A model generated the notes under the pieces. That model did not search any database, was not told where the DNA came from, and saw only the letters and a program-made list of their open reading frames with translations. Made by a program: the position numbers and the translations under genes. DNA of 34,366 bases from NCBI GenBank assembly GCA_026392465.1, contig JAPLCA010000008.1, positions 296,194 to 330,559 on the forward strand, read 5' to 3'. The DNA comes from Propionibacteriales bacterium (GTDB lineage: Bacteria > Actinomycetota > Actinomycetes > Propionibacteriales > Nocardioidaceae). This document shows positions 16,091-34,366 of this stretch, in pieces. Position 1 is the first letter of the stretch; every line of letters begins with the position of its first letter.

Positions 16091-16097
16091 TCCCGGC

Positions 16098-16205: not shown

Positions 16206-16211
16206 GGGGCC

Positions 16212-18941
16212 GTGGCCGTGGTGGCGCACCGACGGCGTCTCGAGCTCGCCGAGGGTCCGCTGGAGGTGCTGCGACGCTTCCGTGACCGCGACCGTCCGGT
16301 GGCGCTGGTCGGCGCGTGGCACCAGGGCGACGCGCTGGTGGCCTGCGACCCCGTGCGGGTGCTCGATCCCGAGGTGGACGACCCGTTCGACCTGCCGCTG
16401 CCGGTGGTGGCACCGGACGCCGACGGACCCGGTGCCGGCTTCGGCGGGGGCTGGATCGGTCTGTGGGGGTACCGGCTGGGCGGCCGGCTGGAGCGGGTGC
16501 CGCCCGCCCGCACCCGTCCCGTCGAGCAGCCCGACGCCCGGCTGGCGTTCTACGCGTGGGTGCTGCGACGCAGCCGGGGCACGTGGTGGCTGGAGTGGCT
16601 GGGCGACGTCGACGTCGCGCCCGTGCTGGCGATGCTCGAGGGTCCCGCGCCGGAGCCGGGCGCGCACCGCGTCGGGCCGCTGCGGCTGGTGCCGTCACCC
16701 GACGAGCACGCGGCAGCGGTCGCGCGGGCGGTGGCGCACGTGCACGCCGGTGACCTCTTCCAGGTGAATCTCTGTGCGCGCCTGGAGGGCGAGGTGCGGG
16801 GGCACCCGGTCGACGTCTTCTGCGCGGGCGCGCAGCACCTGCGGCCAGCCTACGGCGCGTTCGTGGGCGGCCCGGCGGGCAGCGGCGAGGGCGTCGCGTC
16901 GTTCTCCCCGGAGCTGTTCCTGCGCCGCACGGGGCACGAGGTGCTGACGTCGCCGATCAAGGGCACGGCGCCGCTCGGAGCCGGACCGCGGGACGACGCC
17001 GCCGCGGCCGCGACGCTGGTGGCCTCGGCGAAGGACCGCGCCGAGAACGTCATGATCGTCGACCTGATGCGCAACGACCTCGGTCGCGTGTGCGCGCCGG
17101 GCAGCGTGCGCGTCCCCGCCCTCGTCCGGCCCGAGCGGCACGCCGTGTGGCAGCTGGTGTCCGACGTCGTGGGCCGCCTCGCGCCGGACGTCGACGACGC
17201 CGACCTGTGGCGGGCGACGTTCCCGCCGGGGTCGGTCACGGGTGCGCCGAAGGTGCGGGCGATGGAGGTCGCCGCGGCGCTCGAGGCCACCGGGCGGGAG
17301 GCGTACACCGGGGCGATCGGCCACGTCAGCCCGCTCGCCGGTCTCGAGGCGAACGTCGTCATCCGCACGCTGGAGATGGCCCAGGGGCGGGCGTGGCTCG
17401 GCGTGGGCGGTGGGATCGTCGCCGACTCCGACCCGCACGCCGAGCTGGCCGAGGTGTTCGTGAAGGCGCGCCCGGTGGTCGAGGCGGTCGGGGGCAGCCT
17501 CGTCGACGACGTGCCGCTCCCACCGCCCGCGGCCCCGTCCGCGCCGAGGTCCGCGCGGGAGTGGTCCGCGGACGTCACGCGCGGGGTGTTCACCACCCTG
17601 CTCGTGGAGGACGGGAGGGCCGTCGACGTCGCGTCGCACCTGGCCCGGCTCGACGCCAGCGTCCGCGCCGTCTACGGCAGCAGCGTCCGGGAGGGGCTCG
17701 ACGACGCGGTGGCCCGGCGCGCGGCGAGCCTGCCGTCGGGCCGGCATCGGGTGCGGGTCGAGGCGGTGCCCCTCGAGCCGCTGCGCGACGCGGACGACCA
17801 CGCCGTGCCGGTGCGGGTCCGCCTCGTCGACGCCCCGCTCGCGCCCGCCCCCGCCTCGTGGCGGCTCGTGCCGCGCGAGGTCCCGGGCGGCTGGGGCAGC
17901 CACAAGTGGGTCGACCGCGGCCCGCTGGAACCCCCGGCGGGGGCGGACGAGCTGCTGCTCGTCGACGTCGACGGCTCGGTGCTGGAGGGCGGTCGCACCT
18001 CGGTGTTCTGTGTGCTCGACGACGGCGTGCACACGCCCGCGCTCGACGGCAGGGTGCTGCCGGGCACCCAGCGCGCCCGGGTCGTCGACGCCCTCCTGCG
18101 CGCCGGCCTGCCGCTGCGTCAGCGTCGGCTCACGCGCTCCGACCTCGCGGCGGCGTCGGAGGTCTTCGTCACCAACGCCCTGCGCGGGGTCGTGCCGGTG
18201 CACGAGGTCGCGGACGTCGGCGCGTGGCCCGCCCCCGGCCCCCTCGCCACCCTCCTCACCTCGGAACTGGCCTCCCCCCACCCCCCTGACCGTGACGTTT
18301 CCGGGGTGAGAACGCAGGTTCCAGCCCGGAAACGTCACGCTCAGCGGGAGGGGGCGGGCGGGGCCAGGGTGCTGTTCGTCGACAACTACGACTCGTTCGT
18401 CTTCAACCTCGTGCAGTACGTGCGCGAGCTCGGCGCCCGGGCCGACGTCGTCCGCAACGACGAGGTCGACGTCGAGCAGCTCGTCGCCGCGCGGTCGGCG
18501 CGCGAGCTGACGCACGTGGTCCTGTCGCCGGGGCCGGGCGCGCCCGCCGACGCGGGCATCAGCGTCGACGTCGTCCGTCGCCTCGGTCCCACCACGCCGC
18601 TGCTCGGGGTCTGCCTCGGCCACCAGGCGATCGCCGAGGCCTATGGCGCGCGGGTGGTGCGTGCGGCGCAGGTGGTGCACGGCAAGCCGTCGCTCGTCCA
18701 CCACGACGGGCTCGGCCTGCACGCCGGGCTGCCCGCGCCCCTCGTCGTCGCCCGCTACCACTCGCTGGTGGCCGAGGAGGCCAGCCTGCCGGCGGAGCTC
18801 GTCGTCACGAGTCGCACCGCGTCGGGCGTCGTGATGGGCCTGCGGCACGCGACCCATCCGGTCGAGGGCGTGCAGTGGCACCCCGAGTCGATCCTCACGA
18901 GCCACGGGCACGACCTGCTCGCCACGTTCCTCGACGCCTGA
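16212..18941 (+). CDS. pabB: Aminodeoxychorismate synthase component I / aminodeoxychorismate lyase / glutamine amidotransferase (PabB-PabC-PabA frame)
   Basis: One 909-residue frame carries three enzymes of p-aminobenzoate synthesis for folate. PabB, residues about 1-435: FSPELFLRR, SPIKGTAPLG, DRAENVMIVDLMRNDLGRV and FPPGSVTGAPKVRAMEVAAA, the chorismate-binding signatures. PabC, about 450-695: RGVFTTLLVEDGR, the PLP-lysine segment GSHKWVDRG, EGGRTSVF and VTNALRGVVPVHE. PabA, from about residue 720: DNYDSFVFN, SPGPGAP, Cys in GVCLGHQAIAEAYGA and His/Glu in VQWHPES. GTG 16212 with GGGGGAG upstream is preferred; the frame stays open back to ATG 16071 (47 more residues encoded by the 36-bp repeat), overlapping dnaX. 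The PabC-PabA linker (about 18285-18345) looks non-coding and may mark a one-base indel; GTG 18369 would start a separate PabA. Confidence 0.85.
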   Translation: MAVVAHRRRLELAEGPLEVLRRFRDRDRPVALVGAWHQGDALVACDPVRVLDPEVDDPFDLPLPVVAPDADGPGAGFGGGWIGLWGYRLGGRLERVPPARTRPVEQPDARLAFYAWVLRRSRGTWWLEWLGDVDVAPVLAMLEGPAPEPGAHRVGPLRLVPSPDEHAAAVARAVAHVHAGDLFQVNLCARLEGEVRGHPVDVFCAGAQHLRPAYGAFVGGPAGSGEGVASFSPELFLRRTGHEVLTSPIKGTAPLGAGPRDDAAAAATLVASAKDRAENVMIVDLMRNDLGRVCAPGSVRVPALVRPERHAVWQLVSDVVGRLAPDVDDADLWRATFPPGSVTGAPKVRAMEVAAALEATGREAYTGAIGHVSPLAGLEANVVIRTLEMAQGRAWLGVGGGIVADSDPHAELAEVFVKARPVVEAVGGSLVDDVPLPPPAAPSAPRSAREWSADVTRGVFTTLLVEDGRAVDVASHLARLDASVRAVYGSSVREGLDDAVARRAASLPSGRHRVRVEAVPLEPLRDADDHAVPVRVRLVDAPLAPAPASWRLVPREVPGGWGSHKWVDRGPLEPPAGADELLLVDVDGSVLEGGRTSVFCVLDDGVHTPALDGRVLPGTQRARVVDALLRAGLPLRQRRLTRSDLAAASEVFVTNALRGVVPVHEVADVGAWPAPGPLATLLTSELASPHPPDRDVSGVRTQVPARKRHAQREGAGGARVLFVDNYDSFVFNLVQYVRELGARADVVRNDEVDVEQLVAARSARELTHVVLSPGPGAPADAGISVDVVRRLGPTTPLLGVCLGHQAIAEAYGARVVRAAQVVHGKPSLVHHDGLGLHAGLPAPLVVARYHSLVAEEASLPAELVVTSRTASGVVMGLRHATHPVEGVQWHPESILTSHGHDLLATFLDA
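18291..18339. repeat. Perfect 15-bp inverted repeat inside the pab frame
   Basis: CGTGACGTTTCCGGG (18291-18305) and CCCGGAAACGTCACG (18325-18339) are exact reverse complements around a 19-nt loop. Past one mismatched pair, CTGA/TCAG extends the stem. It lies just after a C6-A-C6 tract and an out-of-frame TGA (18287-18289), exactly where an intergenic hairpin would sit between pabC and pabA. Third-position GC drops sharply across it. Confidence 0.85.
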
Positions 18942-20311: not shown

Positions 20312-23029
20312 GTGGGAGACACCTTCACCGCACCGACCGGACGTCGGACGCGCCGCCGCCTGACCCTGGGCGTCGTCGTCACCGCGTCCGCCGGTCTCGT
20401 CACGTTCGGCCTGATGCCGGCCCAGGCGGCGCCCCAGAAGGTGCTCCAGTCGGTCGCGGTGTCGGTCGACGACAGCGGTGCGATCACCAGGATCACGAGT
20501 GACACCGTGTCGCAGGAGGGCGACGCCGACCCGGAGAAGACCGAGCGGGAGCACGACCCCGCGAAGACCGGCTCGGAGCTGCCGCTGCGCGTGCTCACGT
20601 CCTACCGGCTCGGCAAAACGGTGGGCACGGACCTCCAGGACCTCGACGGCAAGACCGGTCGCGCCGAGATCCTCGTGACCGTCCAGAACACGACGGTGCG
20701 GCCGAAGGTGCTCTCCTACGACGCGAACGGCGTCGGCAAGGAGGCGCCCGCCCTGGTCGGCACCCCGCTGACGGTGATGGCCGCGGCGAGGCTCGACGAC
20801 GTCGACACCGCCTCCGTGGTCTCCGCCAGCGAGGACGGGGGCGCTGGCACCAACGGTGTCGTCAGCCGTGACGCGGACGGCGCGACGCAGGTCCAGTGGG
20901 CCACGATGCTCGCCCCGCCGCGGCTCGCCACGAGCGCCACGTTCCGTCTCGTCATCGACTCCGCGGACATCACCCCGCCCTCCTTCGACATCAGCGCGCA
21001 GCCCGGCCTGGTCACCGACACCTCCGTCGCACGCCTGGTCGACTCGGCGTTCTCGGAGTCGGCCGGCAGCCAGCGCGACCTCGAGACCCGGACGATCAGC
21101 GTGCTCACCGGGGTTGGCCAGTCGCTCGCCCAGGCCGGCGACGTGCTCGTCAAGGTCGAGCAGCTGCTCAGCGGGTCCGCGCGCCAGCTCGGCTCGAAGA
21201 CCCTCTCCGACCTCGACCGCAGCGCGGGCGACGTCGACTCCGCGCTCAGCGGTCTCGCCTCGGACATCGACGGTCTCGAGTCGCAGATGAGCGCCGCGCT
21301 GGACTCCTCCAGCGACAAGGCCGTGCAGCAGATGAGCGACTCCCTCGGCCAGGTGAAGACGCGCGTGCTCGGCGACCCCGAGAAGCTCGAGGAGCCGGTC
21401 ACGGTCCGACCGGGCACCGGCCAGGGAGCCACCTGCACCCTCGACGCGGCGCAGGTGCGTCCGAGCGCCACGGTGGTCGGTCAGCTGCGAGCCGTGCGCG
21501 CCCAGCTCGGCCAGCTGAAGGCCGAGTCGGGCGCCTGCCGCGACGCGGTCGTGGCCAGCCTCAAGGCCACGCTCGGCAGCACCACGGACGTCTGCCCGGC
21601 GACGCCGAACGCCCCGACGACCGCGCTCGGCGCGCTGAACTGCGCCTCCGGGCGACTCGGCCAGAGCGTCACCGCGGTGGCCAGCGCCAAGGCGTCCGTC
21701 ACGGGCTCGATCGACGCGCTAGCCGTCGGCACGCTCTCGGACCAGCTCGGCACGGTCCTCACCGACCTGCAGGGCGTCCGTGGTCTCGTCTCCGACATCC
21801 GCAGCGGCGCGCAGGGCTCGTCGATCGGCGATCTCGTCACTCGTCTGAGGGGCATCCTGACCTCCATCAGCACCAGCAGCCAGCTCTCGCAGAGCCTCGC
21901 CACGATCCACAGCACTGCCGCCGCGCAGGTGGCCGCGTTGTCGGACGGCGACGAGAGCGTGCAGGAGCAGGTCGAGGCGCTGCAGACCACCCTGTGCACC
22001 CTGCCGGACTCCCCGGAGCGCACGCAGGCGGCCGGTCTGCTGAGCGGCAAGGACTGCGCAGGCCTCCCGGCACCCACCGGCGACTTCCCCGAGCCGCTGG
22101 CCGAGCGTGTCGACGACCAGCTCGCCGCCTGGCAGCAGATCGCCGACCTGTCCTCCTCGACGGGCGTCCCGTCGATCGTCGAGTCGCTGCGCGACAGCAT
22201 CGGCCAGGTGCTGGACGCCACCCAGGGCGGTACGGGCAGCGTCGACGAGAAGGTCGACGGCACCCTCGCCTCCCTGGACGACCTGTTCGCCAGCGCCCCC
22301 GTGACGTGCGACGACGACGACCTGCCGCCGGCCAACGCGCTGCGCTGCACGGTCGAGACCCTGACCACCAGCCAGGGCCAGATCTCCCAGGACGTCGCCA
22401 CCGCCTTCGACGGCGTCGACGACGCCCTCGCCGACGCCAACCGACAGGTCGCCGACGGCTCGACCAAGGTCCAGGCCGGTGGCGACGCCGCCGCGAACGG
22501 GACCAGCTCGCTCTTCGGCGGCTTCGGCTCCTCGCTCGACGGGATCGGCCGGGCCCTCGCCGACCAGGGCAGGAAGCAGATCGAGCGCCAGCGCCAGCGG
22601 CTCGACGCCCAGGCCGCCGGCTTCGAGACGGCGCTCGACAGCACCATCGCGAAGTCGACGCAGGCCATCGAGGACCGCGTCTCGGCGTCGAATCGTGACC
22701 TGGCCGCCTCGGAGAAGGAGCTGGCGGCGGATTTTGCGGCCATCATCGCCTCGATCGGCTCCCCCGACCGCGCAGGTAGCGGCCTGCTCGTCTCGATCAA
22801 CATCGGTGCCCGCAACACCGGGGCGTCGAACCAGAAGGTCGCCTCCGCGGGCGGTGCTGTCGACGCGTTCAGCGGTGTCCGGGCTACGAGCCTCGACGCC
22901 CTGCTGCTCCAGCAGGAGCAGGTGGCGGCCTCGCTGCAGGCCGAGTCGGCGTTCCCCGCTTTCGACCTGAAGCTGCCGAGCGGCTCGTCGCACACCACCG
23001 TGTTCTCGTTCCACGTCGGCAAGGACTGA
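20312..23029 (+). CDS. Large exported helical/coiled-coil protein, first gene of a type VII-like locus
   Basis: A 905-residue protein with an N-terminal export signal: basic RRTRRR, hydrophobic LTLGVVVTASAGLVTFGLMP, then an AQA-AP cleavage site. About 200 residues of beta-rich sequence follow. The remainder is long helical, Ser/Ala/Gln/Asp-rich segments, with KQIERQRQRLDAQAAGFETA a likely coiled coil. Several Cys pairs (for example TCDDDDLPPANALRC) may be disulfides. The C-terminus ends in a beta-like segment (LPSGSSHTTVFSFHVGKD), with no second membrane helix. No family was recognised; the shape recalls the extracellular domain of EsaA/YueB-type secretion proteins, by analogy only. GTG 20312 places the signal peptide at the N-terminus. 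The lipoprotein gene follows after 2 nt. Confidence 0.82.
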   Translation: MGDTFTAPTGRRTRRRLTLGVVVTASAGLVTFGLMPAQAAPQKVLQSVAVSVDDSGAITRITSDTVSQEGDADPEKTEREHDPAKTGSELPLRVLTSYRLGKTVGTDLQDLDGKTGRAEILVTVQNTTVRPKVLSYDANGVGKEAPALVGTPLTVMAAARLDDVDTASVVSASEDGGAGTNGVVSRDADGATQVQWATMLAPPRLATSATFRLVIDSADITPPSFDISAQPGLVTDTSVARLVDSAFSESAGSQRDLETRTISVLTGVGQSLAQAGDVLVKVEQLLSGSARQLGSKTLSDLDRSAGDVDSALSGLASDIDGLESQMSAALDSSSDKAVQQMSDSLGQVKTRVLGDPEKLEEPVTVRPGTGQGATCTLDAAQVRPSATVVGQLRAVRAQLGQLKAESGACRDAVVASLKATLGSTTDVCPATPNAPTTALGALNCASGRLGQSVTAVASAKASVTGSIDALAVGTLSDQLGTVLTDLQGVRGLVSDIRSGAQGSSIGDLVTRLRGILTSISTSSQLSQSLATIHSTAAAQVAALSDGDESVQEQVEALQTTLCTLPDSPERTQAAGLLSGKDCAGLPAPTGDFPEPLAERVDDQLAAWQQIADLSSSTGVPSIVESLRDSIGQVLDATQGGTGSVDEKVDGTLASLDDLFASAPVTCDDDDLPPANALRCTVETLTTSQGQISQDVATAFDGVDDALADANRQVADGSTKVQAGGDAAANGTSSLFGGFGSSLDGIGRALADQGRKQIERQRQRLDAQAAGFETALDSTIAKSTQAIEDRVSASNRDLAASEKELAADFAAIIASIGSPDRAGSGLLVSINIGARNTGASNQKVASAGGAVDAFSGVRATSLDALLLQQEQVAASLQAESAFPAFDLKLPSGSSHTTVFSFHVGKD

Positions 23030-23031
23030 CC

Positions 23032-24294
23032 ATGAAGCGTGCCCTCGTCGCCGTCACCGCGTCCGCCGGTCTGCTCGCCCTCACGGGCTGCACGGGTGGG
23101 GCGCAGGCCGATCCTCGCGAGCCAGCGGCGGTCGCGCTGGCGGCCGACAAGGTCGACGCTCTGACGATCGGCCTCGTCGTCTCCTCGACATCGGACGCAG
23201 GCCAGGGCTCGGAGTGGCTGGAAGCGTCCGCGGGGGCCGAGGTGGCGGCCTACCGGTTCGGTCTGGCCGGTCGGAAGATCACGTTCTCCGTGGTCGACGA
23301 CCGGGGCTCGGCCGAGCGGGCCACACAGGGGGTGCAGAAGCTGGTCGACGAAGGCGTCTCCGGGATCGTCCTCGCGACGTCGGGCTCGCACGTCGAGGCC
23401 GCGCTCGACCTCGCCTCGGACGCGGACGTCCCGGTGGTCGCCCCGTACCTGCGTACCGGCGGCGTGCCGGAGGGTGTGCACGTCCTCGGTCCCAGCGAGG
23501 GGCAGGTCGACGAGCGCCTCACGCAGGCCCGGGAGTCCGACGGCGTCTCCGCGAGCGTCGTGCTCGTCGGCGACGGCTCCCCCGCCCCCGACCTCGAGGG
23601 TGCGCGCACGGTGCAGCTCGACGGTGACAACCTCAAGCAGGCCGTGCGGGGCATCGCGAAGGGCGTCGAGGACCGCACGGTCGACTCCGTCGTCGTCAGC
23701 GCGTCCACGACCACCCAGGCCCGGGCCGTCGCAGCGCTCCAGGGCGCGGCTCCGGACCTGCCGGTCTACCTGACCCCCGAGGCACTCAGTCCCCGGTTCG
23801 CCAACGCCGTCGTGCGTGGCGACGGCACCGTCGCAGGCCGGCTCGAGGCCGTGGGCGTCGACGCGTCCGACGCGTCGACGCTCGGCTCCGACGCCGCTGC
23901 CGACTCCGCCGCCGCCTACTTCTCCGCCCTGCGGCTGCTCGCGTCCGACCCTGATGCGACCTCGGTGGTCGACGGCACGCCGTTGCAGGAGGCGGCCGCC
24001 GACGCCGACCTGCCGAGCCACGACGCCGTCGTCGCCCTCGTGCGCGCGGCGTCGAAGGCAGGGTCGTCGAAGCCGGGCGACGTCGCCCAGGCTCTCGATG
24101 GCCTGAAGCTCGGCGCGAAGCAGGCGCTGGCGGGCCCGGCGCTCGACTTCTCCTCCACGTACGTCGTGCCCGGCCGCGGGGTCGCCGTGCTGCGGGCGAC
24201 GACGCAGGACCCGGGGGTGCGGCCCGAGCCGGCCGACGGCGACGACGCCCCGCGACTCTTCTGGTTCGGCGTCGGCGACGACGCGCAGGACTGA
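23032..24294 (+). CDS. Lipoprotein with periplasmic-binding-protein (type I) fold
   Basis: A 420-residue lipoprotein. The signal MKRALVAVTASAGLLALTGC has lipobox L-T-G-C with Cys20. The body (KVDALTIGLVVSSTSDAGQG, then VQKLVDEGVSGIVLATSGSH and DADVPVVAPYLRTGGVPEGV) matches the two-lobed branched-chain-amino-acid type substrate-binding fold. No ABC permease or ATPase is near, so it probably senses or presents a ligand rather than feeding a transporter. It is 2 nt from the exported protein gene and 11 nt from the kinase gene, so the three are co-transcribed. The signal segment shares VTASAGL with that of the preceding gene. Confidence 0.82.
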   Translation: MKRALVAVTASAGLLALTGCTGGAQADPREPAAVALAADKVDALTIGLVVSSTSDAGQGSEWLEASAGAEVAAYRFGLAGRKITFSVVDDRGSAERATQGVQKLVDEGVSGIVLATSGSHVEAALDLASDADVPVVAPYLRTGGVPEGVHVLGPSEGQVDERLTQARESDGVSASVVLVGDGSPAPDLEGARTVQLDGDNLKQAVRGIAKGVEDRTVDSVVVSASTTTQARAVAALQGAAPDLPVYLTPEALSPRFANAVVRGDGTVAGRLEAVGVDASDASTLGSDAAADSAAAYFSALRLLASDPDATSVVDGTPLQEAAADADLPSHDAVVALVRAASKAGSSKPGDVAQALDGLKLGAKQALAGPALDFSSTYVVPGRGVAVLRATTQDPGVRPEPADGDDAPRLFWFGVGDDAQD

Positions 24295-24305
24295 CGGGGC
24301 CGGAC

Positions 24306-26321
24306 GTGGACGTGGGGAGCCGTCGGGCGCTCGGCAGCCGCTACGAGCTCCAGGAGAGGCTCGGCTCGGGTGCGATGGGCGAGGTCTGGCTGACCCTCGA
24401 CCGCACGTCGGGCGACCACGTGGCCGCCAAGCTGCTGCGACGTGAGCTGACCGAGGATCCGGAGATCGTCGGCCGGTTCATCCAGGAGCGGTCGATCCTG
24501 CTGGGGCTGCGTCACGACAACGTGGTGCGCGTGCGCGACCTGGTGGTCGAGGGTGACGACCTCGCCATCGTCATGGACCTCGTCACGGGCTCCGACGTGC
24601 GTACGCTGCTCGACCGGTCCGGCACCTGCACGCCGCGCGAGGCCGTCGAGGTGGTCGCATCGGTGCTCGACGCGCTGGCTGCCGCGCACGCCGCTGGATG
24701 CCTGCACCGTGACGTCAAGCCCGACAACGTCCTGCTGGCCGAGGGGCCCGCGCCGATCGGCACGCGTGTCCGGCTGTCCGACTTCGGCATCGCGCGGCTC
24801 GCGCAGGACTCGACGGTGCAGGCCACCGGCCTGCTCGGCACCCCCGGGTACATGCCACCGGAGCTGTTCTCCGAAGGACGGTTCAGCGGGGCGTCCGACG
24901 TGTACGCCGCCGGTGTCATGCTCTACGAGCTGGTCGCAGGCCGCACGCCCTTCGCCGGCGCGGGCACCGCCCACACGGTCGGCTTCCGGCACGTGACGGC
25001 GGCGCCGCCCGTGCTCCCGGTCGCTCCCGAGCTCTGGCACGTCCTCGACGCGCTCCTCGCGAAGGATCCGACCGTCCGGCCCACCCCCGCCACGGCGGCG
25101 CGCATGCTGCGGGGCCTGCCCGACGCGGTCCTCGACGCCTCCCCGCTCTCCCCGCAGCCCGAGCCGACCGAGTGGGTCAGCGTGGCCGCAGCGGCCCCCG
25201 CCTCGGTCATCCAGCCGCGGGCCGACGACAGCATCGACGTCGGCGCCACCCACCTCAAGGGCCTCGCGCCGGTCGCGGCTCCCGTCGCGGCGCAGGGCGA
25301 GGTCAAGGCGCTGGCCGGCGGTGCCGATGCCGCGCTCGTCGACGGGGAGACCAACCTGGCGCGCCGCGACCGCGCGTTCGAGGCACCGGTGCTCGCGCCC
25401 GGCGCGCCCACCGTCGAGGTCGAGCGGCGACGGCGGATGTGGGTGTGGGTGGCAGTGGCCGCAGCGGTCGTCGTCCTGGCCGGCGGCGGCTACCTCGTCG
25501 TCACGAGCCTGACCGGTGGCAACGGAGGCGGCTCGGGGGCGCCCGTGACGTTCCAGGCCGATCCGGTGAGCTATCCGTCGGGTCTGGAGGTCGCCCGAGA
25601 GGCCACCTTCGACCCCGAGACGGGCAGCATCGACCTGGTGATGACCTTCGACTCCACGGGTGGCCCGCTGCGTGGCGACGTGCTGCAGGTGATGCCCGAG
25701 GTCGAGGGACAGGGCTGCCCCGAGGTGACCTGGGACGTCGAGACCACCCTCAATGTGACCCGGGCGACCGGCATCCGCTCCACCTGTCCCGGCCAGGTCG
25801 TCCCCGTGGCGGTCGAGTCGGGCGGCAGCCAGCGCGTGGAGGCCACCGTCGGCGCCGACCTCGGGTCCGATCCTGAGCAGGCCCTGGAGACGTGGCTCGG
25901 CTCGCAGGCCGACGCCACCGCGGCCGCCGTGGACGACCCGGACGTCGTGAAGTCGACGGCGTACGTGCTGCAGCGGCTGGCCGGCATCGAGGTCGTAGTG
26001 CCCAGCACCCTCACCTTCGCGGACAAGGTCGTGCCGGTGAAGCTGTTCCCGCGCTGGTCCAACGGGGAGCCCGACGACCAGAACGTCCTGTACGACTCCG
26101 ACAACCCCGGGCCGCGGACGCAGATGCTCGCCGCCGTCGCCGGTGACGAGGAGCTGCGCTTCAACCCCGGTCCGAGCTGCGACGGCGCCGTCTACGCCGG
26201 GCCCGGTGGGGCGATGGTCCTCGAGGGCCGAGCCGTGGACGGCTGCACCCTCACCACCTCGATCGGACGTTTCACCGACCTCGAGAGCAATGCGCTCACC
26301 GTGGTCGGCCCTCGGAGCTAG
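24306..26321 (+). CDS. Transmembrane serine/threonine protein kinase
   Basis: A 671-residue kinase of the bacterial PknB type. Glycine loop RLGSGAMGEV is at residues 18-27 with Lys42 in AAKLL. The catalytic HRDVKPDN starts at residue 134, and DFG is at 159-161. Activation and substrate loop: GTPGYMPPELF. A juxtamembrane Ala/Pro-rich linker spans about 280-375, and one membrane helix (MWVWVAVAAAVVVLAGGGYL) begins at 378. The outer 270 residues have no PASTA repeats; they form a unique ectodomain with a few cysteines. The next gene encodes an FHA-domain ATPase, and FHA domains bind phosphothreonine, so the ATPase is a likely target. GTG 24306 is the start. Confidence 0.92.
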   Translation: MDVGSRRALGSRYELQERLGSGAMGEVWLTLDRTSGDHVAAKLLRRELTEDPEIVGRFIQERSILLGLRHDNVVRVRDLVVEGDDLAIVMDLVTGSDVRTLLDRSGTCTPREAVEVVASVLDALAAAHAAGCLHRDVKPDNVLLAEGPAPIGTRVRLSDFGIARLAQDSTVQATGLLGTPGYMPPELFSEGRFSGASDVYAAGVMLYELVAGRTPFAGAGTAHTVGFRHVTAAPPVLPVAPELWHVLDALLAKDPTVRPTPATAARMLRGLPDAVLDASPLSPQPEPTEWVSVAAAAPASVIQPRADDSIDVGATHLKGLAPVAAPVAAQGEVKALAGGADAALVDGETNLARRDRAFEAPVLAPGAPTVEVERRRRMWVWVAVAAAVVVLAGGGYLVVTSLTGGNGGGSGAPVTFQADPVSYPSGLEVAREATFDPETGSIDLVMTFDSTGGPLRGDVLQVMPEVEGQGCPEVTWDVETTLNVTRATGIRSTCPGQVVPVAVESGGSQRVEATVGADLGSDPEQALETWLGSQADATAAAVDDPDVVKSTAYVLQRLAGIEVVVPSTLTFADKVVPVKLFPRWSNGEPDDQNVLYDSDNPGPRTQMLAAVAGDEELRFNPGPSCDGAVYAGPGGAMVLEGRAVDGCTLTTSIGRFTDLESNALTVVGPRS

Positions 26322-26347
26322 CGGCTCGGACACCAGGAGGCCCCCGG

Positions 26348-29300
26348 ATGCGGATCATCGTCACCACCTCGTCGTCGAGCGGCGACCGGGACGTGCTCGT
26401 CGACTGCGACGACGCGACGTCGGCGCGTGACCTGGAGCAGGCGCTCGGGCGGGAGATCGGCACCACGGCCGCCTGGAGCCTGGAGGCCGGCGACGCGCAC
26501 GAGGGCGACGTCGCGGTGGCGACGGCCGGGCTCGAGGGGCTCCACCACGGGGCGCGCATCGGCTTCGGGGTCCCTGTCGACGACGCGACGCAGACCGAGG
26601 GTCTTCAGCTGCACGTCGTGTCGGGCCTGCGCGCCGGCACCGTGTTCGTGCTCCCGGTGGGCACGCACGAGGTCGGTCGCGTGGGCGCGCTCTCGTGGGG
26701 CGACCAGTCGATGTCGCGGCGGCACTGCCGCGTGACCGTGACCAGCGAGTCCCTGACGGTCACCGACCTCGGCTCCACGAACGGCACGTTCCTCGAGGGG
26801 GAGCGGCTCGAGGCCGAGCAGGAGGCCGCCTGGCCGCTGGGTGCGCTGCTGGAGCTCGGCGACTCGGCCGTGGTGGTGCGCGAGGCGCGCCGTGACGAGA
26901 CGGTCGTGGAGAACGCGGACCCGGGCTGGCGGACCTTCCTGCGTCCGCCGCGCATCCAGCCGTACCACCTGACGCCGTCGGTGGAGGTGCCGCGCCCGCC
27001 GGGCAAGCAGCACAAGCGCAGCTTCCCGGTGATCGCCATGATCGCGCCCGTGGTCCTCGGCCTGATGATGTTCGCGGTGCTGCGGAACCCGATGTACCTG
27101 ATGTTCCTGCTGATGTCCCCGATGATGATGGCGGCGAACTACTTCTCGGAGCGTCGCGGCCAGGGCAAGACGCGGGCCGAGGAGCTCGCCGAGTACCACG
27201 AGAAGCTCGCAGCGGCGCAGGCGAAGCTGCTCGAGCACACCGAGGCGGAGCAGCAGCGGCTGCGCTCGGCGCTGCCCGACGCCGCGGAGACCTTCGTGAC
27301 GGCCACCCTGCCCGGCGCGCGCCTGTGGGAGCGCCGGCGTCAGGACGACGACTTCCTGGCGCTGCGTCTGGGCACCGCCGACCAGCCGACCACCATCCAG
27401 GTGACCGGCGAGGCGCCCGAGGAGGAGCTGAAGCTGCACGCCGTGCCGGTCGGCTTCTCGCTCGCGGAGTCCGGCGTCGTGGGCCTGGCCGGCCCGGACG
27501 AGGTCGTGGACGACGTGCTGCGCTGGTCGATGCTGCAGCTGGCGGCCTACCACGCCCCCCGCGACCTGACGATCTCGTTCCTGACGTCACGCGGCGGCGA
27601 GGAGTGGTCGTGGCTCGCGTGGCTGCCGCACCTGTCGGCGGGCGACCTCGACGCGTGCATCGCGATGGTCGGCAACGACGCCGAGACGCACAAGGCGCAG
27701 GTGGCGTGGCTGACGGCCACGATCAAGGAGCGCAAGGCACTCGCGAAGGACCACCGGGCCGGTGCTGCCAGCTTCCCGGCGCACGTGGTCGTGCTGCACG
27801 GCTACCGCGCGCTGCGGGCCCTGCCGGGGCTCGCAGCGGTGCTGGAGGACGGACCCGCGGTGGGCGTGTACGCGCTGTGCGTCGACGACCACCAGCGGTC
27901 GCTGCCGGAGCGCGCGAGCGCCACGCTCCAGGTCGACCCCGTCGACCGGACGCGCGCGGCGCTGCGCAGCAGCGGACGACCGTCGGTGCCCGACCTGCAG
28001 ACCGAGGGCGTGAGCCTGGCGGTCGTCGACCGCGCGGCACGGGCGTTGGCCAGCCTGCGCGACGTCGGCGAGGGCGAGGAGGGCGGCCAGGTGCCCGACT
28101 CCGCGCGTCTGCTCGACGTCCTCGGTATCGACCCGCCCACCCCGGACGCCGTCCGCTCGGGCTGGATCATCTCCCCGCGCAGCACGTCGATGACCCTCGG
28201 TCTCGGCGCTGACGGGCCGTTCGCGCTCGACCTGAGGTCCGACGGCCCGCACGGACTCGTCGCCGGCATGACCGGGTCGGGCAAGACGGAGCTCCTCCAG
28301 ACCATGATCGCCTCGCTCGCGGTCGCGAACCGGCCCGACCAGATCAACTTCGTGCTCGTCGACTACAAGGGCGACAGCGCGTTCAAGGACTGCGTGAAGC
28401 TGCCGCACACCGTCGGCAAGGTCAACGACCTCGACCCGCACCTCGTGGTCCGTGCCCTGCAGTCGCTCAAGGCGGAGCTGAAGTACCGCGAGCACTTCCT
28501 CGCCGAGGCCGGCACGAAGGACATCGAGGACTACCAGGACCTGCAGGCCAAGGAGCCGCACCGTCCGCCGCTGCCGCGCCTGCTGATCGTCATCGACGAG
28601 TTCGCCCAGCTGAGCAAGGACCTGCCCGACTTCGTCACCGGCCTGGTCGCGATCGCCCAGCTCGGACGTAGCCTCGGCATCCATCTGCTGCTGGCGACGC
28701 AGCGACCGTCCGGTGTCGTGTCGCCCGAGATCCGCGCCAACACCAACATGCGCATCGCGCTGCGCGTGGCCGACGCCGCTGACAGCTCGGACGTCCTCGA
28801 CGTGCCCGACGCGTCGCGGATCGCGAAGTCGACGCCCGGTCGCGCCTACGCCCGCCTCGGCGCGGGCACGATGAAGCTGTTCCAGTCCGGCCGCGTCGGT
28901 GGACGTCGCCCCGGTGCCGTCGCGACCGACGTGCCCCCGCCGTTCCTCGCGCCGGTGGGGTGGCGCAACCTCGGCTACCCGCCGCCGCGCCCGCCGCGGC
29001 GCAAGGAGGTCGAGGTCGAGGGGACGGACCTGTCCGAGCTGGTGACCGCCGTCGTGGAGGCGGCGCGCCTGGAGGAGGTGCCTGCGCAGCGCAGCCCCTG
29101 GTTGCCGTCGCTTCCGGAGTCCCTGCTGTGGTCCGAGGACGTCACCGACGAGGCGCGGCGCGGTAGCGTCCCGGCGCTGCCGTACGGCCGCCAGGACCTG
29201 CCGCACCGGCAGGAGCAGGTCGTGGCCGCGCTCGACCTGGTGCGCGACGACCACCTGCTCGTGGTGGGTTCCTCGGGCAGCGGTCGCTCGCAGCTGCTGC

Positions 29301-30652
29301 GCACCATCGCGGCGTCGGCGGCCCGCCTGACGCACCCGACCGATCTGCACCTGTACGGGCTCGACTGCGGCAACGGCGCGCTCAACGCGCTCACCGCGCT
29401 GCCGCACACCGGTGCCGTGGTGAGCCGCACCGAGGGGGCGCGGGCAGCTCGTCTGCTGGCGCGCATCGGCGAGGAGCTCGACCGTCGTCAGCAGATCATG
29501 GCGGCCGGCGGGTTCGGCGACATCTCCGAGCAGCGGGCCTCGGGGGTCGACCCGCTGCCGCACGTGCTGGTCCTGCTGGACCGGTGGGAGGGCTACACGG
29601 CCACCATCGGCGAGGTGGAGGCGAACCACAACGTGGTCACCCGGATCCTGCGCGAGGGTGCGGGTGCCGGCGTGCACCTGGTGGCCACGGGCGACCGGAC
29701 GCTGGCGTACAACTCGCGAGTGTCGTCGATGGTCGAGAACAAGCTGGCGCTGCGCCTGGCCGACCGTGACGACTACGGTCTCCTCGGTCTCAAGCCGCGC
29801 GACATGCCCGACTCCGTGGCTCCTGGCCGGGGCTTCACGCCGCAGGGCTACGAGACGCAGATCTTCCAGCTGGCGGCCGACCCGTCGGCGCAGGCGCAGG
29901 CGCGTGAGCTGCAGGTGCTCGGCGACCGTGCCAAGGAACTGGTCGACGCCTCGACGGTGCGGCCGTTCCGGGTCGACCCGCTGCCGGCCCGCATCACTGC
30001 GGAGCAGGCGCTGGAGCTCGTGCCCGAGGGCGTGGCCGGACCGCACGCGGTGGTCGGCGTCGGCGGCGACGAGCTGACGGCCTTCGCGCTGCACGTGGGC
30101 GAATCCACGGGCTTCGTCGTGGCCGGCCCCGGCCGGTCGGGCCGCAGCTCGGTGCTCGAGGGCATGGCGCGCACGTTCGTGGCCAGTGGTGGTGCGGTGA
30201 TCGCGGTCGCGCCGCGGCCCAGCCCGCTGCGCGACCTCGCGGGCGACGGCGTGCTCGCGGTCGTGACCGACGCGACGACCCCGGCGTCGGAGTTCGACGC
30301 GTGGGTGGAGCAGGCGGGTCGTCCGGTGCTGGTCGTGATCGACGACGGCGAGGGTCTGCGCGACTGTGCGGCCGGGGACTTCTTCCTGCGCTCCATCCGC
30401 GGCCAGGTCCCGGGCACCCTCGTGGTGCTGGGCGGTCACGCCGAGGGCGTGGGTGCCGGTCTCAGCGGCTGGCAGCCGGAGATCAAGAAGGCGCGCCAGG
30501 GCCTGCTGCTGTCGCCGCAGGGCCTCGGCGACGGCGACCTCGTGGGCGCGCGGGTGCCGCGCAACCTGCTCGGCCAGCCGGTCGTCGTCGGTCGCGGCCT
30601 GCTGCACGTCGGTGACGGCTCGCTGCGCCAGGTGGCCACGCTGACGTCCTGA
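26348..30652 (+). CDS. FHA-domain FtsK/SpoIIIE ATPase, type VII secretion EssC/EccC-like
   Basis: A 1434-residue membrane ATPase. An N-terminal FHA domain at about 95-150 shows GRVGAL, SMSRRHCRV and DLGSTNGTFLEGE. Two membrane helices at about 225-262 (FPVIAMIAPVVLGLMMFAVL, then MYLMFLLMSPMMMAANYF) are followed by three FtsK/SpoIIIE modules. Module 1 has a canonical Walker A AGMTGSGKTE (about 641-650) and Walker B LLIVIDEFAQL. Module 2 has GSSGSGRS with Lys replaced by Arg and LVLLDRWEG. Module 3 has GPGRSGRSS, also Arg. So only module 1 looks catalytic, as in EccC where later modules are regulatory or bind substrate. It should power export of WXG100-type substrates. CAGGAGG precedes ATG 26348. 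It is the last gene of the operon. Confidence 0.92.
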   Translation: MRIIVTTSSSSGDRDVLVDCDDATSARDLEQALGREIGTTAAWSLEAGDAHEGDVAVATAGLEGLHHGARIGFGVPVDDATQTEGLQLHVVSGLRAGTVFVLPVGTHEVGRVGALSWGDQSMSRRHCRVTVTSESLTVTDLGSTNGTFLEGERLEAEQEAAWPLGALLELGDSAVVVREARRDETVVENADPGWRTFLRPPRIQPYHLTPSVEVPRPPGKQHKRSFPVIAMIAPVVLGLMMFAVLRNPMYLMFLLMSPMMMAANYFSERRGQGKTRAEELAEYHEKLAAAQAKLLEHTEAEQQRLRSALPDAAETFVTATLPGARLWERRRQDDDFLALRLGTADQPTTIQVTGEAPEEELKLHAVPVGFSLAESGVVGLAGPDEVVDDVLRWSMLQLAAYHAPRDLTISFLTSRGGEEWSWLAWLPHLSAGDLDACIAMVGNDAETHKAQVAWLTATIKERKALAKDHRAGAASFPAHVVVLHGYRALRALPGLAAVLEDGPAVGVYALCVDDHQRSLPERASATLQVDPVDRTRAALRSSGRPSVPDLQTEGVSLAVVDRAARALASLRDVGEGEEGGQVPDSARLLDVLGIDPPTPDAVRSGWIISPRSTSMTLGLGADGPFALDLRSDGPHGLVAGMTGSGKTELLQTMIASLAVANRPDQINFVLVDYKGDSAFKDCVKLPHTVGKVNDLDPHLVVRALQSLKAELKYREHFLAEAGTKDIEDYQDLQAKEPHRPPLPRLLIVIDEFAQLSKDLPDFVTGLVAIAQLGRSLGIHLLLATQRPSGVVSPEIRANTNMRIALRVADAADSSDVLDVPDASRIAKSTPGRAYARLGAGTMKLFQSGRVGGRRPGAVATDVPPPFLAPVGWRNLGYPPPRPPRRKEVEVEGTDLSELVTAVVEAARLEEVPAQRSPWLPSLPESLLWSEDVTDEARRGSVPALPYGRQDLPHRQEQVVAALDLVRDDHLLVVGSSGSGRSQLLRTIAASAARLTHPTDLHLYGLDCGNGALNALTALPHTGAVVSRTEGARAARLLARIGEELDRRQQIMAAGGFGDISEQRASGVDPLPHVLVLLDRWEGYTATIGEVEANHNVVTRILREGAGAGVHLVATGDRTLAYNSRVSSMVENKLALRLADRDDYGLLGLKPRDMPDSVAPGRGFTPQGYETQIFQLAADPSAQAQARELQVLGDRAKELVDASTVRPFRVDPLPARITAEQALELVPEGVAGPHAVVGVGGDELTAFALHVGESTGFVVAGPGRSGRSSVLEGMARTFVASGGAVIAVAPRPSPLRDLAGDGVLAVVTDATTPASEFDAWVEQAGRPVLVVIDDGEGLRDCAAGDFFLRSIRGQVPGTLVVLGGHAEGVGAGLSGWQPEIKKARQGLLLSPQGLGDGDLVGARVPRNLLGQPVVVGRGLLHVGDGSLRQVATLTS

Positions 30653-30969: not shown

Positions 30970-31635
30970 TCAGGAAGCGGGGTCCGGGCGGGGGTGCAAC
31001 GGCTCGGGCTCCCAGGCCAGCGCGCCCGCGCCGTCCTCGTCGGCGACGTGGAGGGTCTCGGCGATGCTGTCGAACAGGGCGACGAGGGGGTCGGCGAGCG
31101 GGTCGGTGGAGGTGACGAAGCTGAGCACGAGGACGCGGTCGAGGTCGGCCTGGACGAGGTAGTCGACATGGGTGTGCCAGATCAGCGGCGACCCAGGGGT
31201 GTCGGGATCGGCCGGTTCCTCGACCTTTCGGACGCGGCGCAGTGCGGTGCGCCCGGCAAGCTCGGTGGCGCTGTTCTCCGTGACGCCCTCGGCCGCACCG
31301 AGCAGGGTGGCGAGCTGAGGCCCGAGCGTGCTGCCGTCCCCGGTGAACAGCTGGGCCACGAGCAGGGTGGCGGAGACCGGCAACCCCCGGACCGGATCGG
31401 CGAGACCGTGAATCTGCGTGACACCGTTCTCGGCGGCGCGGGAGACGTCGGCGCGCAGCCGACGATCGGCCTCGATGCGCACCTGGATCAGCTCGTCCCG
31501 CGCGGTGCGCCGGAACTGGCGGTCGAGGAGCCGCTTGATGTCCGCCTCGCGGCGGGCATGGTCCGTGGAGAGGGTGATCCACCCGGCCGGCAGCACGATT
31601 CGCCACGCTCCGGGTGCACTGACGACGCGTTCCAT
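30970..31635 (-). CDS. Uncharacterised protein, last gene of the minus-strand operon
   Basis: A 221-residue soluble protein. The start AWRIVLPAGWITL, a helical middle (RREADIKRLLDRQFRRTARD) and a beta-rich second half (HTHVDYLVQADLDRVLVLSF, then DPLVALFDSIAETLHV) resemble the general outline of Mog1/PsbP-type domains; this is a guess from pattern, not a recognised match. The protein at 32834-33451 shows the same order of segments and may be a distant paralogue. The ATG at 31635 overlaps the preceding stop (ATGA). Its context suggests a chaperone or accessory factor of the neighbouring secretion system, like the role of EspG, but there is no sequence evidence for EspG itself. Confidence 0.75.
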   Translation of the reverse strand: MERVVSAPGAWRIVLPAGWITLSTDHARREADIKRLLDRQFRRTARDELIQVRIEADRRLRADVSRAAENGVTQIHGLADPVRGLPVSATLLVAQLFTGDGSTLGPQLATLLGAAEGVTENSATELAGRTALRRVRKVEEPADPDTPGSPLIWHTHVDYLVQADLDRVLVLSFVTSTDPLADPLVALFDSIAETLHVADEDGAGALAWEPEPLHPRPDPAS

Positions 31636-32837
31636 CAGCCGATCACCCCCGTGGATCCGAGGCTACGTCGACGCTGCCACGCGGCGAGGACAACTGCCGC
31701 GCTGCTCGCGAAGCAAAGCGTGGCGAGGAGAGCCCCGTACCAGCCGTAGGACCGGTCTGGGTCGAGGCCGCTGAAGACGCCGATCGTCGCCCCGCCGATG
31801 CCACACACGAGGGGCGTCAGCTGCCCTCCGTTGCCTAGAACGGGCCCTTGTCCGAAAAATGTCAGGATTGCCGGCGGCGCCTGCTTCAATGCTCGAGGCT
31901 CACGGTCCATCCTCACCTCGAGCCCCGCGGCCCGACATGCCCGTTGCGCGGCGTCGACGTCCCACTGCGAGCCGCCCGCCTGAAGGACGACGTTGCCGTC
32001 GCGCTCGAAGGACAGACCGTCGGGCGAGACGATGCAGCGGGTTGCCCCACCCCGGCGAGGCCCGGCGACCCATTGCTCCGCGACGCCCGCGCTGAGCAGG
32101 ATGTCGTCGGCGCCGATCTGGAGGTGAGAAGGACGCCCGCCGCCAGCGCCGGGAGTGCCCCCGGTGAGAGCGACGCGATCTTCCGGTTCCGGAGGTCGCA
32201 ACGTCGAGGAGAAGCGCCGACGCTGGCGCAACAGATCGAACGTGAGGGCAACGACCAGAGCGGTGCCGATGCCCAAAGGAACAGGGTGCTCGTACGAGAA
32301 CGCCCCGTCGCGGGAGCCGAGCACCACCGCCACGATGATGCTCAGCGCGATCCCCAGCGCCCCGAGGGCGTGCAACCAGCCCCTGCGTGTGAGCCCCGTC
32401 TTCAGGGGACCGGTCTCGAATGCCGCCCCGACGAGGGCAGCGGCGTCGTTCTGGTCGGCTCGCTCGAGCGGCAGCCCGAGCTCGGCGACGAACGCCTTGA
32501 CGCCGGACGCCGCGCGCTGCTGTTCGCCGGTGGTCTCAGACCCAGGAGCCAGCAGCACCAGGGGCACGGCCAGAAGCACGGAGCTCTCGGACCGTATGAC
32601 GAGTAGCTGGTCGAGCTCGGTCGGACCGATGCTCGGAGCAAGCAGTGTGTTCCGAGGCATCATCTGACCTGGCGCGATGCAAGCTCGCACGATCTCCCCT
32701 GCCGCAGCCACGCGTCGGGGCTCGCGGTTCGGTCGGTGCTCGGTGATCACACCCGCCTCGGCGTGGTACCGCCACTGGCGTGCCTCGGGGATCAGCAAGC
32801 CGGCGCGGGGCCCTGCATAGAGCCAGCGCCCGCTCAC
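31635..32837 (-). CDS. Uncharacterised membrane protein with four helices
   Basis: A 400-residue protein. Residues 1-150 are soluble (SGRWLYAGPRAGLLIPEARQ, LLVIRSESSVLLAVPLVLLA). Membrane helices are at about 154-174 and 185-203, then a soluble domain of about 135 residues containing a probable PH-like strand pattern (CIVSPDGLSFERDGNVVLQ). Two more helices lie at about 341-357 and 366-387. No family was recognised; it is not an obvious EccB, EccD or EccE. The GTG at 32837 overlaps the preceding TGA (GTGA), and its own TGA overlaps the next ATG. By position it may be a membrane component of the secretion locus. Confidence 0.75.
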   Translation of the reverse strand: MSGRWLYAGPRAGLLIPEARQWRYHAEAGVITEHRPNREPRRVAAAGEIVRACIAPGQMMPRNTLLAPSIGPTELDQLLVIRSESSVLLAVPLVLLAPGSETTGEQQRAASGVKAFVAELGLPLERADQNDAAALVGAAFETGPLKTGLTRRGWLHALGALGIALSIIVAVVLGSRDGAFSYEHPVPLGIGTALVVALTFDLLRQRRRFSSTLRPPEPEDRVALTGGTPGAGGGRPSHLQIGADDILLSAGVAEQWVAGPRRGGATRCIVSPDGLSFERDGNVVLQAGGSQWDVDAAQRACRAAGLEVRMDREPRALKQAPPAILTFFGQGPVLGNGGQLTPLVCGIGGATIGVFSGLDPDRSYGWYGALLATLCFASSAAVVLAAWQRRRSLGSTGVIG

Positions 32838-33451
32838 AGGCCACGCACCGATGCGGCAAGCGGCACCAGGTGGTCCGCGAGATCGGCCGCGCTGACGAGG
32901 TCGGGCATGGGCAGAGAGGTCAGCTCGTACGCGACGCCCAGCTCGGCATCCAACCAGAAGATCAGCACGACCTCGCTCAGCGCGAGGTCGCCCCCGGGCT
33001 GGTTCTCGTGCTCGACGAACTGGCGCAGCCGCACCAAGGTGGCCGGGCCTGAGCGCGTTTCGATGGTCTCCATCACCGGAGGTTGATACAGGTTGACCTC
33101 GCTCGCCAGGTGTTCGACGAAGTCGGTCGGAGTCGTGTCGGGGGTGATGCGCACACAGCACAGCGTGACAAGTCCGCGCACGTCAAGCACACGACCATCC
33201 GTCGGCAGCAGCACCCACGACGCCAGGTACAACGTCTCGTCGTCGCTGCGCGAGACGAGGTCCACGCCCAGGTCGTGGAGCTCGGTCCCGATCGCCTCGA
33301 TCACGTCCCGTGGCTGCGGATCGAGATCGACGAGCTCAAGGACGGTGCCCAGGAACTCGGTCAGCGAGGGTTCTGTGGGCAAGGGCAACCATGCCCGGAA
33401 CCCGTCGACCTCCAGCGCGGGCTCGAAGGAATCCGTCTCCGTGCCCGTCAT
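32834..33451 (-). CDS. Uncharacterised soluble protein, second gene of the minus-strand operon
   Basis: A 205-residue protein without signal peptide or membrane helix. GFRAWLPLPTEPSLTEFLGT is followed by alternating beta and helix segments (LYLASWVLLPTDGR, VLDVRGLVTLCCVRI, ETRSGPATLVRLRQFV, LSEVVLIFWLDAELGVAYEL, then ADLADHLVPLAASVR). Segment order parallels the 221-residue protein at 30970-31635, hinting at distant paralogy. ATG 33451 overlaps the stop of the upstream gene and its own stop overlaps the next start, so stoichiometric co-production is likely. Function unknown. Confidence 0.75.
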   Translation of the reverse strand: MTGTETDSFEPALEVDGFRAWLPLPTEPSLTEFLGTVLELVDLDPQPRDVIEAIGTELHDLGVDLVSRSDDETLYLASWVLLPTDGRVLDVRGLVTLCCVRITPDTTPTDFVEHLASEVNLYQPPVMETIETRSGPATLVRLRQFVEHENQPGGDLALSEVVLIFWLDAELGVAYELTSLPMPDLVSAADLADHLVPLAASVRGL

Positions 33452-34366
33452 CGGCCCACGGGTGTCACGCGCGTCGGATCTGGCAGAGGCATGTCGCGTT
33501 CGGGGACTCCGTCGGCGGCGTCCAGGATCGCGATGTCGCTGTCGTGCAAGGTGTCTGGGAACGATGTCACGGCGTCGAGGATCTCACTGAAGTCGTGTGC
33601 CTGCGCGACGCCGCTCATGCCCGCAGCGCCCAGTCCGGCCACGTTTCGCAGCGTGGCGGTGGTCAAGGCGGTCGTCTCGGCCGCCTCGAGACCCAGCGTC
33701 GACATCGCGCGGATACGGAGGAAGTTGTTCACGACGTCGTCGAGACCGACGACACCCAGCGCCCGAGTGATCAGGGGACTCCTGACAGCGGCGTCGTCGA
33801 TCACGGAGGCGGCACGCGTGACAGCGGCGGTCACGGCGGCCAGCTCGCGCCCCTGCGCCCAGCGCGAGACGAAGCCGATCGGGATCCTCTGTGCGAACTT
33901 GACGTAGAACGGAAGTGACCGCCGGGCCTGGTCCGCGACGCGGGTGAGGACTTGAAGGCGGGTCGTTCCGACGATCGCTTTCGCGCCGGCCCCGACGAAC
34001 TTCGTGAGTCCACCGCCGATGGCCCCGAGGGCCGCCCAGCCGACATCTTCCAGTGACGCGTCACCCATGAAGTACTGAACCGACGTCAGGGCGAGGATGG
34101 ACAGACCCACCCAGAAGGCGGCGGCAGTCAGGAACGCCGCGAGCGCGGTGCCGCCAGAACCGATGATGACCAGCACGATGAGCACGACCGCGATGATGAT
34201 CGCGATGATGGTCAAGGCATCGACGAGGACCTTGAGGACGGCGGACACGGCGCCCTTGACGTCGTCCATCGTGCTGTCCTTGAAGTGCCCGGACGCGGCG
34301 TTGATGGCGCGCTTGCAGGTGTCGGCGGCGGCGTCGAGGGCGTCCATCGCGTTGCGCAGGCGGGTG
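33448..34366 (-). CDS. Putative type VII-associated membrane/substrate protein, partial
   Basis: The frame runs off the right edge, so the N-terminus is missing; about 305 residues are visible. The first ones (AMDALDAAADTCKRAINAAS) look like the second helix of a helical hairpin as in WXG100/PPE-like N-terminal domains. Two membrane-like stretches follow (LTIIAIIIAVVLIVLVII and ALAAFLTAAAFWVGLSILAL). The rest is a mostly helical Ala-rich region and a Pro/Asp-rich C-terminus (LPDPTRVTPVGR). This layout fits large putative type VII substrates, but no toxin domain is recognised. It heads an operon in which every junction is a 4-nt overlap. Confidence 0.65.
   Translation of the reverse strand, partial: TRLRNAMDALDAAADTCKRAINAASGHFKDSTMDDVKGAVSAVLKVLVDALTIIAIIIAVVLIVLVIIGSGGTALAAFLTAAAFWVGLSILALTSVQYFMGDASLEDVGWAALGAIGGGLTKFVGAGAKAIVGTTRLQVLTRVADQARRSLPFYVKFAQRIPIGFVSRWAQGRELAAVTAAVTRAASVIDDAAVRSPLITRALGVVGLDDVVNNFLRIRAMSTLGLEAAETTALTTATLRNVAGLGAAGMSGVAQAHDFSEILDAVTSFPDTLHDSDIAILDAADGVPERDMPLPDPTRVTPVGR

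Follow-up and report, generated by a model that had tools for sequence, protein, structure and literature searches.

The type VII secretion system (T7SS) subtype T7SSd, from Olsenella and Bifidobacterium, was described by Garrett et al. (2024; PMC11217815). In that account, TsdI is a large Ig-domain protein with a carboxyl-terminal transmembrane (TM) segment, TsdH has a single TM segment and a short cytoplasmic tail, and phosphorylation control of T7SSs is raised only as a possibility (PMC11217815). The window analyzed here is a 34,366-nucleotide stretch of DNA from a Propionibacteriales bacterium, the terminal part of its contig C4 (G000:C4:296194-330559). It contains a row of four genes, encoding a large exported protein (P1), a solute-binding-fold protein (SBP), a Ser/Thr kinase, and an ATPase with an FHA domain. 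Judged from sequence, this gene set is a T7SS variant nearest to T7SSd in logic, with a receptor-like triad (P1, SBP, and kinase) and a ubiquitin-like domain carried in cis by the ATPase; we infer that the kinase gates secretion.

All four genes are on the + strand, with intergenic gaps of 2, 11, and 26 nt, exactly as placed (20312-30652) by a preliminary description of this DNA made from the sequence alone. P1 (20312..23029) has 905 aa. The SBP (23032..24294) is a putative lipoprotein with a type I periplasmic-binding fold (Pfam Peripla_BP_6, E 5.6e-14). The kinase (24306..26321) comprises a catalytic domain (24342-25097; Pkinase, E 1.8e-49), a linker (25128-25433), one TM segment (25434-25520; residues 377-405), and an ectodomain (25521-26318) that matches no Pfam family. 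The EssC/EccC-like ATPase (26348..30652) contains an FHA domain (26597..26890; E 1.4e-10), a TM region (27017-27112), and FtsK_SpoIIIE sequences (E 1.2e-65) with Walker A motifs in D1 (28265-28288), D2 (29267-29290), and D3 (30125-30148). Thus, the earlier assignments of a periplasmic-binding-like second gene, a kinase with a non-PASTA ectodomain, and an FHA-bearing EssC/EccC-like ATPase all held.

The likeness to T7SSd covers several features: occurrence in Actinomycetota; an FHA-ATPase with a conserved phosphothreonine motif; a membrane Ser/Thr kinase; a WXG100 protein; no separate ubiquitin-like gene in view; and Rhs-type candidate substrates. The differences are that P1, with its predicted β domain, helical insertion, and no carboxyl-terminal TM segment, stands where T7SSd has the Ig-domain TsdI, that an SBP-fold protein is added, and that a ubiquitin-like domain is seen here at the ATPase amino terminus. 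The T7SSb (Ess) system likewise has an FHA-bearing ATPase, a kinase-fold membrane partner, and a large exported envelope protein. However, the kinase here retains its catalytic residues, unlike the EssB pseudokinase (no EssB model was run); P1 lacks a carboxyl-terminal TM segment; and the ATPase scores below the EssC cut-off. With T7SSa (ESX), the locus shares an FtsK-type ATPase and WXG100-type genes.

A different parallel comes from mycobacteria and corynebacteria. GarA/OdhI is an FHA protein. In the GlnH-GlnX-PknG-GarA/OdhI pathway, a solute-binding protein outside, a kinase inside, and an FHA reader form a similar arrangement. In the present locus, by contrast, it is a secretion ATPase that bears the FHA domain, and the kinase is itself a transmembrane protein.

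The ATPase keeps its Walker motifs, and its best-scoring model is EssC (TIGR03928; E 5.4e-173), at 577.6 bits against a cut-off of 778.4. It also falls below the cut-offs for EccCa (TIGR03924, E 2.1e-127; 426.6 of 509.2 bits) and EccCb (299.1 of 346.6 bits). An ordinary ESX system was therefore rejected, since the ATPase lies under all three NCBIfam cut-offs and the EccC on contig C26 of the same genome passes both EccC ones. Classical ESX parts are found elsewhere in this genome, on contigs C26 and C7: EccC (952 and 857 bits), the EccD ubiquitin-like domain, and an EccB-like gene (by eye). For YukD/EccD (PF08817), C4 has no match at E up to 1, and the genome's matches are on C7, C26, and C35. 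A same-genus genome that has the system, G008, likewise has no such match at E up to 1 anywhere. No EccB was noticed in the window in a check by eye, and no mycosin, EccB, or EccE in the gene lists of the window and of the G008 locus, L053; no family search was made for these. Nor does the L053 gene list show any of the classical ESX parts; a complete ESX set just outside the window, which the preliminary description had named as a finding that would count against its proposal, thus did not turn up. Its statement that the layout is not classical ESX agrees with these scores. (The start of contig C7, L015 53-3891, carries WXG100, EccD-like, and EccB-like genes. The first 141 bases of C7, L016 1-141, are those of C8, an assembly fork.)

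How widely do the four genes stay together? A search for P1 homologues yielded 69 proteins, and 38 were aligned; the ensuing contig scan gave 41 loci, and four more brought the total to 45. These cover 18 named actinobacterial genera plus some metagenome-assembled genomes (MAGs), and some are near-copies of each other (for example, L065 and L096), which makes the number of independent events smaller than 45. The SBP gene adjoins P1 on the same strand in 44/45 loci, and the sole miss is cut by a contig end. The FHA-EssC-like ATPase is present in 39/45 loci, or in 39 of the 43 with enough DNA (contig ends truncate L101 and L112), counting a short 839-aa form in L073. The kinase is in view in 37/45. 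For the eight loci without it, a genome-wide search with the ectodomain covered all but L101 and L112, and each of the six genomes has a match at another place (E 1e-41 to 8e-10). Gene order and strand vary between genera; the partner genes stay the same. The linkage is beyond chance, with the SBP gene beside P1 in all loci but the truncated one, and the absence of linkage that the preliminary description listed as a refutation did not occur. The distribution is patchy: P1 is encoded in 5/58 relatives, the bacterium's own genome included, and in 1/98 genomes over the class (the own genome only; the query was the single window protein, which may miss distant P1).

The catalytic residues are intact in 37/37 kinases. 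A linker, 77-122 residues long in the rows that were counted, connects the kinase domain to the TM segment. This linker carries a recurrent motif, T-x-[ILV]-[RKHG] (Thr-x-aliphatic-basic), often paired. At least two copies occur in 27/37 kinases (1000 shuffles: mean 0.5, maximum 5), and at least one in 35/37 (shuffle maximum 15). Further homologues were then considered: 120 listed, 97 of these below 75% identity to the 37. At least two motifs occur in 71/97 (500 shuffles, maximum 6) and at least one in 95/97 (maximum 31), with a density of 1.96 per 100 residues in the linker versus 0.29 in the ectodomain. In the window kinase, the candidate phosphothreonine docking site is D-V-G-A-T-H-L-K-G (25236..25262; Thr315), followed by D-G-E-T-N-L-A-R-R (25341..25367; Thr349).

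Grouping the kinases (with L108 excluded) places at least two matches in 12/14 of the window type, 13/15 of a second group, 0/2 of a Schaalia/Pauljensenia pair, and 2/5 of those without a full ATPase. A narrower form, D-x-G-x-T, is present in 14/14 window-type kinases with a full ATPase and also in L073 with its short one. It is found in 0/4 Nocardioidaceae loci without an ATPase (Fisher p 0.0003; these are two sister pairs, hence two events at most).

On the receiving side, the ATPase FHA residues G110, R111, S123, N145, and G146, which we take to be the phosphothreonine-binding positions, are kept in 29/29. Residues 1-75 (26348..26572) precede the FHA domain, and AlphaFold2 (29 sequences) predicts for them a strand-strand-helix-strand-strand order (mean predicted local distance difference test score, pLDDT, 81; lower towards residue 80). 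Among 35 such amino-terminal domains, two Pfam families lead the matches: ubiquitin (7 domains; best E 2.8e-5) and YukD (6; best 0.0023). Profile comparison with 19 EccD-type amino termini gave a probability of 68.7 over 63 columns; controls were far lower (200 column shuffles, at most 3.2; reversed profile, 2.5; FHA part, 1.7). The genus also has five YukD matches that score under the cut-off (E 0.004 to 0.36) and lie inside FHA-ATPase reading frames outside P1 loci. By sequence and predicted fold, then, the region before the FHA domain is ubiquitin/YukD-like. Such a domain may explain the ubiquitin-like protein missing from T7SSd.

What might be secreted? The preliminary description noted that the window lacks WXG100 and EccD genes. 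This is correct for the window itself, yet WXG100 genes lie just beyond the contig end. The convergent genes on the - strand (30970-34365) run past this end, which shares 141 identical bases with the end of contig C27. C27 holds a WXG100 gene (PF06013, 60.3 bits), a 100-aa gene, and then the start of a protein with T7SS_signal (PF21725, 43.0 bits). In L053 the entire block is on one contig, in the order WXG100 (49.1 bits), 100 aa, 440 aa with T7SS_signal (35.4 bits), 374, 150, 218, and 195 aa; these genes face ATPase, kinase, SBP, and P1. Because of the overlap and the matching gene order in L053, the C4-C27 join is likely. Both an EccC/EssC-type ATPase and a WXG100-family protein, the broad hallmarks of a T7SS, are then found at the locus.

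The four convergent proteins are 33-61% identical to their L053 relatives. The first (30970..31635), kept with the block, is 61% identical to the 218-aa protein of L053, which matches no Pfam family. The next (31635..33161) is a relative of the 374-aa protein; it aligns only from its residue 114 onward, and translation probably begins inside the reading frame. The third (32834..33451, 205 aa) is 50% identical to the 150-aa protein. The last (33448..34365) is the carboxyl-terminal part of a putative T7SS substrate whose amino terminus is on C27.

Across the 45 loci, WXG100-like genes are in view in nine; nine show a relative of either the 440-aa protein of L053 or the 377-aa protein of L055, and the union is 14. 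Neighbor clustering identified a conserved 93-aa family, its W-D-G invariant, in 14 other loci that belong to another sub-lineage. Within the stretch examined, 13 of the 14 also encode a protein from one cluster of large proteins, 12 with a WXG-like start and many with YD-type repeats; the names Rhs and WXG-like for these are our reading. (An initial idea, that the Propionibacteriaceae/Microbacteriaceae type has no WXG protein, was rejected upon finding this 93-aa family.) In all, a WXG-type gene or substrate relative is in view in 28/45 loci, and PF06013 is present somewhere in 21 of the 28 genomes with no WXG100-like gene in view. Among the genomes whose kinase gene lies apart from the locus, G045, G064, G065, and G066 have the W-D-G gene on the stretch examined; the G063 and G067 stretches lack it.

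The two remaining proteins would face outward. P1 has a single hydrophobic segment, an amino-terminal signal or anchor (20360-20422; residues 17-37), whose end, AQA-AP, looks like a signal-peptidase site. There is no carboxyl-terminal TM segment, and no Pfam family, Ig families included, matches above cut-off. Cysteines 375, 409, 562, and 582 are invariant across the aligned family. Structure prediction (83 sequences; mean pLDDT 79, predicted template-modelling score 0.46) suggests a β domain (20429-21016; residues 40-235), a long helical part (21026-22948), and a last strand (22988-23017) that fold matches group with the β domain. The preliminary view of an exported coiled-coil protein thus survives in its export-type amino terminus; coiled coil alone gives way to a predicted β domain with a long helical insertion. 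In the SBP, the polar positions H120, D326, H330, and D331, along with G118, are kept in 41-44/44. A lipobox-like site is present in 26/44; of the remaining 18, the majority begin with a TM-like segment (by eye). These features fit a membrane-held sensor rather than a shuttle to a permease.

Phylogenetic trees bear on how the set was assembled. An ATPase tree with 62 sequences spreads the P1-linked members over three parts, requiring three changes (0/500 shuffles as low), and classical EccC stands apart with full support. The second group stays intact in both the P1 tree (21 rows) and the kinase tree (14 rows). Both trees set the loci without an ATPase with the window type and separate them, well supported, from the second group; inner support on the window-type side is often weak. 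This position reads as loss of the ATPase. The P1 tree unites the Schaalia/Pauljensenia pair with Blastococcus (99/99), and that pair's ATPase falls among T7SSd-like ones; exchange is possible in this case. Long branches and an unplaced root limit both readings of the trees, inheritance and module capture.

Other FHA-ATPase clusters were seen along the way. In the same genus, L064, L068, L069, and L070 have a T7SSd-like cluster with a repeat giant, MoxR-, DUF58-, and transglutaminase-like genes (by eye), an FHA-ATPase, and WXG-type genes; the L068 giant has fn3, Big_9, and cadherin repeats, and this cluster also has an RDD+FHA protein. Ten same-genus genomes (L054-L063) have another FHA-ATPase lineage, 43-48% identical to the window ATPase, with a pilus-like gene run (Tad-type, in our reading) beside nine of the ten (not L054) and a WXG100-like gene in L054-L057. 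L174 and L175, from two Nocardioides genomes, hold one more FHA-ATPase cluster; it includes WXG100-like genes and has clpX- and clpP-like genes close by (by eye). Within the window, 16071-18941 (+) encodes a 956-aa protein that combines chorismate-binding enzyme, class IV aminotransferase, and glutamine amidotransferase parts and begins with a repeated Gly/Ala-rich sequence.

Together, these results suggest a working model. The tethered SBP and P1 would form, with the kinase ectodomain, a receptor outside the cell. Ligand or envelope contact would activate the kinase, which would phosphorylate the paired threonine motifs of its own juxtamembrane linker. The ATPase FHA domain would then dock at the phosphorylated linker, in place of the EssB-FHA2 contact of T7SSb, with the built-in ubiquitin-like domain standing in for EsaB or the EccD amino terminus. 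The docked ATPase would export WXG-type proteins and larger WXG-headed substrates, and P1 is predicted to form a spike through the wall. We consider it probable that these genes form the core of a T7SS variant present across many Actinomycetes and that the kinase gates the FHA-ATPase through its own linker motifs. More tentatively, this may be a ligand-gated T7SS in which a portable receptor module (P1, SBP, and kinase) triggers the firing of polymorphic toxins, with FHA-type actinobacterial ATPases carrying their ubiquitin-like subunit in cis. The preliminary description had already proposed sensing, phosphorylation, FHA reading, and gating; that scheme is strengthened by FHA residues that do not vary, a kinase with intact catalytic residues, and juxtamembrane Thr motifs that come in pairs, and is one that we still infer.

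Several points weigh against kinase gating and its components. The linker pattern was derived from the same 37 kinases, related sequences inflate the counts, and the 97 further homologues belong to the same family. The window kinase itself has one strict match (Thr315), as the Thr349 motif falls outside the strict pattern with Ala at the basic position (+3). L088 has zero strict matches, and the Schaalia/Pauljensenia pair one each. D-x-G-x-T is also missing in the other ATPase-bearing groups (0/15 and 0/2), whose motifs are worded differently, so its loss is telling only inside the window-type group. The amino-terminal domain of the window ATPase alone has no Pfam match, and the fold search covered ATPase residues 82-182 only. 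The P1 predicted fold has no strong match, and its fold matches are weak. PF06013 was not found in 7/28 genomes; four of these (G045, G053, G068, and G073) have the W-D-G gene, and no W-D-G gene was seen in the other three, whose whole genomes were not searched for it. Finally, 4/43 loci (L077, L080, L084, and L085) have the P1-SBP-kinase triad with no adjacent ATPase, and the triad may therefore do more than gate secretion.

This last observation invites the alternative of a stand-alone signaling triad that senses envelope or nutrient state, the T7SS ATPase being one client. The four Nocardioidaceae triads are followed by L25- and pth-like genes, and the short L073 ATPase is at a similar place. 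Two of the genomes have a different FHA-ATPase cluster elsewhere besides an EccC-like one, and the two MAGs have only a 29%-identical ATPase. GlnH-GlnX-PknG sets a precedent for a sensor acting on an FHA protein. Nevertheless, retention of the ATPase in 39/43 loci, the trees (read as ATPase loss), and the missing D-x-G-x-T motif in the ATPase-less loci make this quite improbable. Another alternative is an ESX-like ATPase beside unrelated genes, for which only the rarity of the set over the class speaks; recurrence of the same partners in the 18 named genera, despite altered order and strand, leaves this barely credible.

A stronger competitor is a constitutive T7SS in which the kinase, SBP-fold protein, and P1 are translocon parts, comparable to EssB and EsaA, and the contact between kinase and FHA domain is for assembly instead of signal gating. 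In T7SSb, EssC FHA2 is needed for EssB association, and the translocon is kept fully assembled (PMC9436818). The long helical part of P1 would fit an envelope-spanning component; moreover, the lipobox-like or TM-like starts of most SBPs mean that free ligand binding is not required. Such a machine, however, would hardly explain kinase catalytic residues intact throughout, or SBP polar positions so consistently kept. The FHA residues presumed to bind phosphothreonine are invariant as well. In this they are unlike T7SSb, according to PMC11217815. We regard constitutive secretion as unlikely, and favor gating by the kinase.

No description of this gene set was found in open-licence papers, among the matches listed, and the text sections of PMC11217815 consulted do not give it under any of the subtypes T7SSa-j. 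Apparently, then, this T7SS variant is undescribed so far; its new elements are the paired kinase linker motifs and the ubiquitin-like domain in cis on the ATPase.

For the question of how T7SS firing is controlled, a single row of genes here supplies a candidate receptor and a kinase, together with two candidate threonines and the domain to read them, and thereby turns the question into a direct binding and mutation test. Moreover, the ubiquitin-like subunit in cis, if borne out, would remove the T7SSd puzzle of the missing EsaB.
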